Below are positions 4,788 to 4,968 of a stretch of DNA of 64,000 nt, one piece after another (position 1 is the first letter of the stretch; every line of letters starts with the position of its first letter). The stretch spans positions 1 through 64,000 of the forward strand of contig JAJZDX010000025.1 of NCBI GenBank assembly GCA_021805865.1, read 5' to 3'. The position numbers and the translations under genes are program-made. Under the pieces are notes generated by a model. It ran no database searches, was not told the DNA's origin, and saw nothing but the letters and a program-made list of their open reading frames with translations. This stretch comes from Pseudomonadota bacterium. GTDB taxonomy: Bacteria; Pseudomonadota; Gammaproteobacteria; Steroidobacterales; Steroidobacteraceae.

Positions 4788-4815
4788 AAAAAAAACCGCC
4801 AGGGGACCGGCGGTT
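4788..4815 (-). terminator. attenuator (Rho-independent terminator) in the aroG leader
   Basis: On the minus strand AACCGCC (4809-4815) pairs with GGCGGTT (4794-4800) across an 8-base loop, followed by eight T's (4788-4795). It sits 30 bases before the aroG ATG, inside the transcript. A second copy of the 3' arm, GGCGGTT, lies upstream at 4867-4873 within the leader peptide. It can pair with the 5' arm to form an antiterminator, which is the hallmark of translation-coupled attenuation. Confidence 0.85.
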
Positions 4816-4842
4816 CTTTCGGGTTTGCTCGTCTCGACTACA

Positions 4843-4932
4843 TCATGGAAGCGACGACAGCCCGCCAACCGCCCGCGAATGCGGCCAATAGATTCGATAA
4901 TACGCGCGACGGTCTGAGGGGAATTCGGGCAT
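4843..4932 (-). CDS. aroG attenuator leader peptide (29 aa, Tyr/Trp codon cluster)
   Basis: This short ORF of 29 codons ends 27 bases before the terminator hairpin. It contains the cluster YYRIYW (codons 11-16: TAT TAT CGA ATC TAT TGG). When Tyr-tRNA is scarce, a ribosome stalled at codons 11-12 would leave GGCGGTT (codons 20-22) free to pair with AACCGCC and block the terminator. No Shine-Dalgarno precedes the ATG. A TAACAA -10 element at 4939-4944 would start transcription at about the A of the ATG, so it may be translated leaderless. The mechanism is inferred from sequence alone. Confidence 0.75.
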   Translation of the reverse strand: MPEFPSDRRAYYRIYWPHSRAVGGLSSLP

Positions 4933-4938
4933 GGGCTA

Positions 4939-4968
4939 TTGTTATCATGAGGAGGCCGGACTCGGCAA
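4939..4968 (-). promoter_or_regulatory. putative aroG promoter
   Basis: On the minus strand TTGCCG (4963-4968) and TAACAA (4939-4944) are separated by 18 bases. Transcription would begin near 4932, which is also the first base of the leader-peptide start codon. Confidence 0.45.

Follow-up and report, generated by a model that had tools for sequence, protein, structure and literature searches.

We analysed a 64,000-nucleotide stretch of DNA from a bacterium of the Steroidobacteraceae (the window), in which an aroG-type DAHP synthase (3-deoxy-7-phosphoheptulonate synthase, 358 aa) is encoded on the minus strand at 3681..4757, with its ATG at 4757. The gene identity proposed in an earlier sequence-only reading was supported by a profile match of 518.6 bits to TIGR00034 (aroFGH; cut-off 173.2), and the NF006723 (AroG) profile gave 529.1 bits, below its cut-off of 568. 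A PLP-dependent decarboxylase (PF00282) is encoded divergently from aroG at 5125-6591 on the plus strand. A functional link between the decarboxylase and aroG was rejected, as the two are neighbours in 0/13 other genus loci searched (1.5 kb flanks). The convergent aroG neighbour is retained in 1/13 other genus loci, and the leader described here stays while the neighbours change.

The stretch ahead of aroG, on the same minus strand, carries the parts of a predicted leader-peptide attenuator. The 29-codon ORF containing YYRIYW that had been claimed is present, followed by its stop codon, at 4843..4932 (4932-4843 as read; MPEFPSDRRAYYRIYWPHSRAVGGLSSLP), on the evidence of the ORF list and of our leader model R1, and is probably leaderless. 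Its putative control codons, Tyr Tyr Arg Ile Tyr Trp (4885..4902), were assigned from the translation and the stall geometry. Immediately 5' of them lies a candidate region 1 (protector, GACCGTC + CGCG, 4903..4914), which pairs with region 2 in the whole-leader fold, the isolated 1:2 hairpin having -15.7 kcal/mol. Region 2, the predicted antiterminator strand GGCGGTTGGCGG (4862..4873), contains at 4873-4867, inside the leader ORF, the exact second GGCGGTT, equal to the terminator 3' arm and complementary to the terminator AACCGCC, that had been read as the competing antiterminator. Counted from this copy, the first and second Tyr codons begin 29 and 26 nt upstream, in line with the spacing claimed for them. 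Region 3, the terminator 5' arm AACCGCCGG, was placed at 4807..4815 from the sequence and from pair conservation in the family alignment A2, with AACCGCC at 4815-4809. Region 4 (4788..4802) comprises the terminator 3' arm CTGGCGGTT (4802-4794, GGCGGTT at 4800-4794) and eight T's (T run 4795-4788). The sequence of this hairpin is as described earlier, termination being a prediction, and its folding energy is -19.5 kcal/mol.

A possible extra hairpin in the 2:3 loop, with arms TCGTC/GACGA around the leader stop codon, was noticed by eye (4829..4857, minus strand), and a helix at this site is also found in the MFE structure of the window 2:3 stretch. By eye in the genus alignment (A1, 14 rows), the arms read TTGTC/GACAA in L082 and TCATC/GACGA, pairing incompletely, in L092. 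The segment TAGTCGAGACGA (4829-4842, minus strand), 3' of the leader, is conserved across the majority of the nearer genus rows, and its pairing with the leader end within the antiterminator loop is possible.

Upstream of the ORF, again on the minus strand, we read from the sequence a predicted -35 element TTGCCG (4963..4968), TTGCC being present at this place in 10/14 aligned genus loci, and a predicted extended -10 element TGATAACAA (4939..4947). The hexamer TAACAA of the latter (4944-4939) follows the -35 by 18 nt and ends 6 nt ahead of the leader ATG (4932).

The window alone is only suggestive, and conservation is decisive. Two of the 484 short ORFs of the window (10-45 aa, both strands), the leader included, have at least four aromatics in six residues, the fold of 4968-4780 has a z of -1.72 (10/200 shuffles equally good), and the best region 2:3 match in the window has p 0.12 against 100 shuffles. 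A consensus promoter/terminator scan of the window reported neither at the leader; the scanner probably missed the terminator since the T run also belongs to the longest stem. R1 matches the window leader over 4932-4790 (70.9 bits, E 1.5e-17), this locus being among its 53 training rows.

The second aromatic-rich short ORF of the window, at 61674 (RLFFLFF), was set aside, a terminator and a biosynthetic gene not being found downstream in the stretch read. A phage-integrase-family protein with an arm DNA-binding domain (PF00589, PF13356) is encoded at 62043-63239 on the plus strand, so that an integrated element is probably present at this end of the window. A tRNA suspected by eye near 61800 was dismissed, ARAGORN finding none at 61500-62300.

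Loci for comparison were chosen by enzyme similarity with the leader not considered, 80 of them from database contigs and the others from the window's relatives (96 loci, L001-L096, from alpha-, beta- and gammaproteobacteria). A terminator-like hairpin is present upstream at 77/96 loci, and at 76/96 it is accompanied by an antiterminator strand and, ahead of this strand, by a leader ORF with a stretch of 6 residues holding 3 or more aromatics. R1, trained on 53 leaders of this first set and no independent test on those, adds L064 and L052, so that the leader is found at 78/96 loci, and it also detects L097, at the end of a contig, as the 15th locus of the genus. With L097 counted, all 15 aroG loci found in 58 genomes of the window's genus have the leader; aroG itself is present in 15/58 genus genomes and in 8/28 of the more complete ones.

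The carriers, by record title, include Burkholderia, Caballeronia, Cupriavidus, Janthinobacterium, Massilia and Bordetella, together with Xanthomonas, Stenotrophomonas, Dyella, Rhodanobacter, Bradyrhizobium, Mesorhizobium, Rhizobium, Devosia, Phenylobacterium and Leisingera. The leader was not seen at 18/96 loci, among them L065, where the sequence 5' of the gene is limited to 55 nt. These 18 comprise loci of Rhodocyclaceae, Zoogloeaceae, Methylophilaceae and Ferrovum, of an ectothiorhodospiracean and of an enterobacterium, among others, as well as L089 and L090, whose enzymes are the two most distant. On a quick enzyme tree, leader presence requires 6 changes vs 16.7 in shuffles. In Entomohabitans (Enterobacteriaceae, L074), a short ORF MLRDFMACFFWFSGLFRKAVK is located 142 nt upstream of the aroG-type gene, with no terminator and no R1 match, and is either a remnant or chance. 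A glycine riboswitch (RF00504) was detected near the aroG locus of [Pseudomonas] boreopolis (L045:3448-3538).

R1 was also run on 397 genomes of the phylum, none used in training, although species may overlap with the first set. Outside the window's own genome, we examined every R1 match with an E of 7.1e-6 or better (65) along with five above that value (n=70): 57 are directly upstream of aroG, 7 are Rfam Phe_leader elements and 6 are weak matches with neither (L162, L163, L165, L167, L168, L169). The leader is thus present in at least 58/397 sampled genomes, the own genome included (a lower bound from stricter filters), in 58 of the 220 having an AroFGH enzyme (E 1e-60 or better) and in 12/46 families. 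R1 matches at E 0.01 or better occur in 221/397 genomes, many of the weak listed ones being partial and covering the terminator end of the model.

The presence of the leader goes largely by family: four families are saturated (15/15, 12/12, 10/10 and 6/6 genomes) and others are partial (6/10, 2/3 and 1/2). Four small genomes (G214, G247, G310, G399; ~1.7-2.1 Mb) have no leader and the other 6 genomes of their family have it, a possible loss with genome reduction. The large families with three AroFGH copies have the leader in none of their genomes; three copies are found in 0/58 leader genomes vs 37/162 AroFGH genomes without leader, a contrast that follows family lines. Two copies are present in 18/58 leader genomes, and one large single-copy family (37 genomes) is without the leader.

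The structural evidence comes from alignment A2, consisting of 53 rows from the 57 non-redundant leaders among the 76 (L047, L060, L085 and L095 left out). For the terminator, 94.7% of cells are paired and 22 carry changes on both sides, at a covariation score of 0.170; on each of these three measures 0/500 shuffles were as high. The score is also above every slide, and the number of pairs changed on both sides was reached by 13/500 shuffles. The alignment of relatives, suggested earlier as a check, came out in favour of the leader, which is kept at most of the loci with co-varying terminator pairs. For the antiterminator 2:3, 78.8% of cells pair and 10 are changed on both sides, a number reached by 6/500 shuffles; its covariation score, reached by 80/500, lacks significance. 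Two of the five bases of the GGCGG-like core are invariant in the 53 rows, and the rest are kept in 50 or 51. This core starts in codon position 3, 2 and 1 in 65, 8 and 3 leaders, respectively; it is found in all three codon positions, and therefore the selection there is on RNA. The complementarity of regions 1 and 2 (mean z -0.81; below null in 55/76 leaders), weak to moderate over the family as a whole, is strong in Burkholderia and many rhizobia, weak elsewhere and not general; the strongest signal, in Burkholderia, is TCCGCCA from the codons of MSAK.

The claim of leaderless translation stands as likely. No SD-like motif was found ahead of the window leader start, TGnTA is invariant in 14/14 A1 genus rows, and the distance from the end of the TA hexamer to the start codon is 6 nt in 13/14 and 7 nt in L092. 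Over the family, an SD-like tetramer/pentamer occurs at 1/76 leader starts, 68/76 aroG starts (nearest in-frame start) and 122/1520 random positions. TA at a gap of 6-8 nt was observed for 49/76 leaders (shuffles mean 11, maximum 19), and the best-scoring -10 hexamer is 4-8 nt away in 36/76 (shuffles mean 9.5, maximum 19). In Burkholderiaceae and Oxalobacteraceae the best -10 is mostly 25-39 nt upstream and the SD is absent, and these leaders look SD-less rather than leaderless. As judged from these upstream sequences, the leaders are SD-less nearly throughout, and probably leaderless in the window's lineage and others. The C. glutamicum ilvBNC leader is reportedly without a ribosome binding site, going by the title of a cited reference. 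In Bradyrhizobium, leaderless mRNAs are reported to be preceded by TGnTA (PMC4842269), and in S. meliloti the trp attenuator ORF is leaderless (PMC10117765), as far as the accessible parts of these two papers go.

The 76 leaders are enriched in aromatic codons. Between the start and region 2, the residues are 19.1% F, 15.5% Y and 4.6% W, and the aromatic residues ahead of region 2 amount to 464/1184 (39%) in frame vs 143/1168 and 131/1146 (11-12%) in the other frames. Because 52/76 leaders combine all three types of aromatic codon, 23 have Phe with Tyr and one has Phe with Trp, the sensor is best read, from its codons, as pan-aromatic and not as responding to tyrosine alone. The earlier proposal of Tyr-codon attenuation of DAHP synthase is thereby retained for ribosome-mediated attenuation, which has comparative support, and is amended as regards Tyr as the only signal. 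The codon differences in five groups of close relatives comprise 148 synonymous, 29 aromatic to aromatic and 109 with the aromatic lost (pairs, not events). The pairwise counts are 84 synonymous vs 46 lost in Burkholderia alone, and 35 synonymous vs 46 lost in the window's genus, where loss is commoner, which counts against the attenuator reading.

A sensor of Tyr alone (or of Tyr plus Trp), to which the other aromatic codons would be irrelevant, is unlikely. Such a sensor would match the window's control cluster, Tyr-Tyr-Arg-Ile-Tyr-Trp, with its 3 Tyr and 1 Trp, and one codon type can dominate, since in C. glutamicum aroR both codons are present and Phe limitation acts while Tyr availability does not (PMC11802643, available text). 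However, Phe is the most frequent aromatic codon over the family, and the sister leader, that of the window's nearest relative, has YEQFYW; others have YYRFYW, YYWFYW and YFRYYW.

The aromatic run has a sharp edge on the side of the region 2 core. In the 76 leaders, codons are aromatic in 42-47% of cases at 30-35 nt from the core, 87% at 21-29 nt and 97% at 18-20 nt, then in 43% at 15-17 nt, 64% at 12-14 nt, 5% at 9-11 nt, 0% at 3-8 nt and 8% (6/73) at 0-2 nt. The run ends 12 nt before the antiterminator core, and this edge is as would be expected if a stalled ribosome must leave the antiterminator free. The ribosome footprint ahead of the A-site was taken as ~12 nt, an assumption of which the edge of the run is independent; given this footprint, an A-site at least 12 nt from the core would just leave region 2 free. 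With the A-site on the window's control codons, region 2 is outside the footprint of this assumed size.

When the RNA downstream of the ribosome is folded up to region 3, the mean 2:3 pairing probability is 0.82-0.99 for A-sites 12-45 nt upstream, and zero, by definition in the script, for a ribosome over or past region 2. It is still 0.82-0.83 for A-sites 30-45 nt upstream, i.e., before the aromatic codons; pairing thus being likely on the 5' side of the run as well, the informative feature is its 3' edge alone. For A-sites at the window's control codons the 2:3 probability is 0.93-1.00.

Taken together, the sequence comparisons make it very probable that the locus carries a leader-peptide transcription attenuator before the DAHP synthase gene, predicted to raise the enzyme when charged aromatic tRNAs run short. 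The sequences show the parts, how they are conserved, the codon enrichment and the geometry; where transcription starts, that ribosomes stall, that the pairing switches and that amino-acid supply is answered are inferred, in the following course. Transcription probably starts at the leader start codon or right beside it, and ribosomes would begin without a Shine-Dalgarno site. When an aromatic tRNA is short (Tyr or Trp here; usually Phe too in relatives), the ribosome would stall on YYRIYW (4902-4885), so that region 2 (GGCGG core, from 4873) would stay uncovered and pair with region 3 once this is made and before region 4; with regions 2 and 3 paired no terminator would form, and aroG would be transcribed. 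When aromatic tRNAs are plentiful, the ribosome would cover region 2, regions 3 and 4 would pair, and transcription would end at the T run (4795-4788).

At equilibrium, RNA that includes region 4 favours the terminator (P 0.99-1.00 for every stall position examined), and antitermination must therefore be kinetic. The switch is held to be kinetic in other attenuators as well. In the naked window RNA up to region 3, 2:3 pairing is favoured (P 0.83, vs 0.05 for region 2 paired to the segment 5' of the Tyr codons), and termination without translation is therefore poorly predicted.

We consider it very unlikely that the terminator merely ends a stand-alone small RNA or small-protein gene whose peptide or RNA acts in trans, the control of aroG being incidental. 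The predicted terminated RNA would be ~145 nt, and the S. meliloti trp attenuator RNA and leader peptide have trans functions according to the consulted portions of PMC10117765 and PMC7298713. However, the peptide outside the aromatic run and the region 2-encoded stretch differs between lineages (by eye), the region 2 core shifts reading frame, and the element stays directly before aroG. A trans role may exist in addition to aroG attenuation.

Even less probable is the control of aroG at the promoter by a repressor (TrpR or other), with the hairpin as a minor constitutive brake. A TrpR-family protein is encoded in the own genome, and TrpR or TyrR control aroF, aroG or aroH in other Proteobacteria (PMC5343134, in the text available), but the own genome has no TyrR-type domain (PF18024; E. 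coli among the positive controls), and a repressor leaves the aromatic codon enrichment and its edge unexplained. With the consensus pattern used, 5 TyrR-box-like matches of 3 mismatches or fewer were found in the whole window, none of them close to 4940-5120, so that a TyrR box near the promoter was rejected, and a strict consensus pattern gave no TrpR-operator-like match in the window. Repressor and attenuator layers could coexist. A chance ORF over an ordinary terminator, as the weak window statistics alone would allow, has practically no probability and is ruled out by the conservation of the leader at 78/96 loci and its new discovery before aroG in 57 sampled genomes.

The own genome additionally encodes a class II DAHP synthase (L098, G000:C70:93573-94880), without an aromatic leader in the upstream stretch read, and a second PF00793 protein that resembles KdsA (name assigned by eye). 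Two unrelated DAHP synthases thus coexist in this genome, one of them seemingly attenuated, and aroG is presumably an additional, regulated isozyme.

A known element similar to the aroG leader is Rfam RF01859 (Phe_leader, of pheA and pheST leaders), which shares the aromatic run followed by a terminator and differs in having Phe codons before pheA or pheS, in contrast to the mixed codons before aroG. R1 cross-detects Phe_leader at 7 loci (L158, L160, L161, L164, L166, L170, L171), a positive control; by eye these precede pheA- or pheS-like genes, and the cross-detection hints at shared ancestry or strong convergence. At the gathering score RF01859 has no match in the window or in 23 scanned relatives with the aroG leader, on which ground membership in Phe_leader was rejected; the family is also absent among the Rfam matches of the window leader up to E 5, and we found no Rfam family matching the aroG leader.

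Among described systems, the C. glutamicum aroR-aroF attenuator, reportedly the subject of Neshat et al. 2014, is alike in that a DAHP synthase gene is preceded by a leader peptide containing aromatic codons (Phe-Tyr-Phe). In the portions of PMC11802643 and PMC4046766 at hand, aroR before aroF answers Phe limitation and not Tyr; it is actinobacterial, and by this description is set apart from the present leaders, which belong to another phylum and mostly have all three aromatic codons. The Acholeplasma uORFC-13-1 before aroF is likewise a uORF with Phe codon(s) and a terminator before a DAHP synthase gene, with 24 examples from Acholeplasma and environmental sequences, and is described with an RBS, unlike the SD-less aroG leader (PMC8632094, consulted sections). 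Attenuation of a proteobacterial DAHP synthase gene has been proposed, aroF with a tyrosyl-tRNA sensor, as a hypothesis for E. coli aroF (Camakaris 1980, as cited; PMC8632094), for Shewanella, where aroF and aroH have candidate motifs in the 5' UTR and aroF is noted, after E. coli, as an attenuator sensing Tyr-tRNA (PMC2659441), and for Vibrio aroA-tyrA, in Merino-type attenuator predictions (PMC1173090). In the available text of these sources, compared by description, these are hypotheses or machine predictions in other lineages, and no mixed aromatic leader is described. The S. meliloti trpL (rnTrpL) shares the leaderless ORF starting with AUG and the aromatic-pathway attenuator in a proteobacterium, and differs as a Trp leader before trpE from the mixed leader before aroG (PMC10117765, same portions).

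Across the open-access literature, which leaves most subscription journals outside, no description of a mixed-aromatic DAHP synthase leader was found in the texts available, and a phrase search for an aroG/aroF leader or attenuator gave only the Corynebacterium paper. The kind, a leader-peptide attenuator, is known; the three-aromatic input before DAHP synthase, the breadth and the SD-less start were not found described in that accessible literature. One leader with codons for several end products of a branched pathway is known from E. coli ilvGMEDA, which resembles the aroG leader as a multi-amino-acid leader and differs in its amino acids (Ile/Val/Leu) and in the ilv genes.

We somewhat favour the reading that the leaders form a widespread, unnamed family acting as an OR gate, in which shortage of any one aromatic tRNA would stall the ribosome on the mixed Phe/Tyr/Trp run and turn on DAHP synthase in alpha-, beta- and gammaproteobacteria, with translation started without SD and leaderless in many lineages. 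The family could enter Rfam, as it is found before aroG at 78 loci and in 57 sampled genomes, with a possible overlap of species between the two sets. DAHP synthase catalyses the first step towards all aromatic amino acids, at the head of the shikimate pathway, and its textbook control is by TyrR, TrpR and three feedback-specific isozymes. If the OR gate is true, a single RNA would take on the task that in enterobacteria is shared among three isozymes and two repressors. TyrR and TrpR are reported in gammaproteobacteria and not in other classes (PMC5343134, as far as its accessible text goes), and no account of how the non-gammaproteobacterial classes set the DAHP synthase level was found in the open-access texts available. 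For many of those classes, a conserved mixed-aromatic leader would be the answer to how DAHP synthase is controlled.
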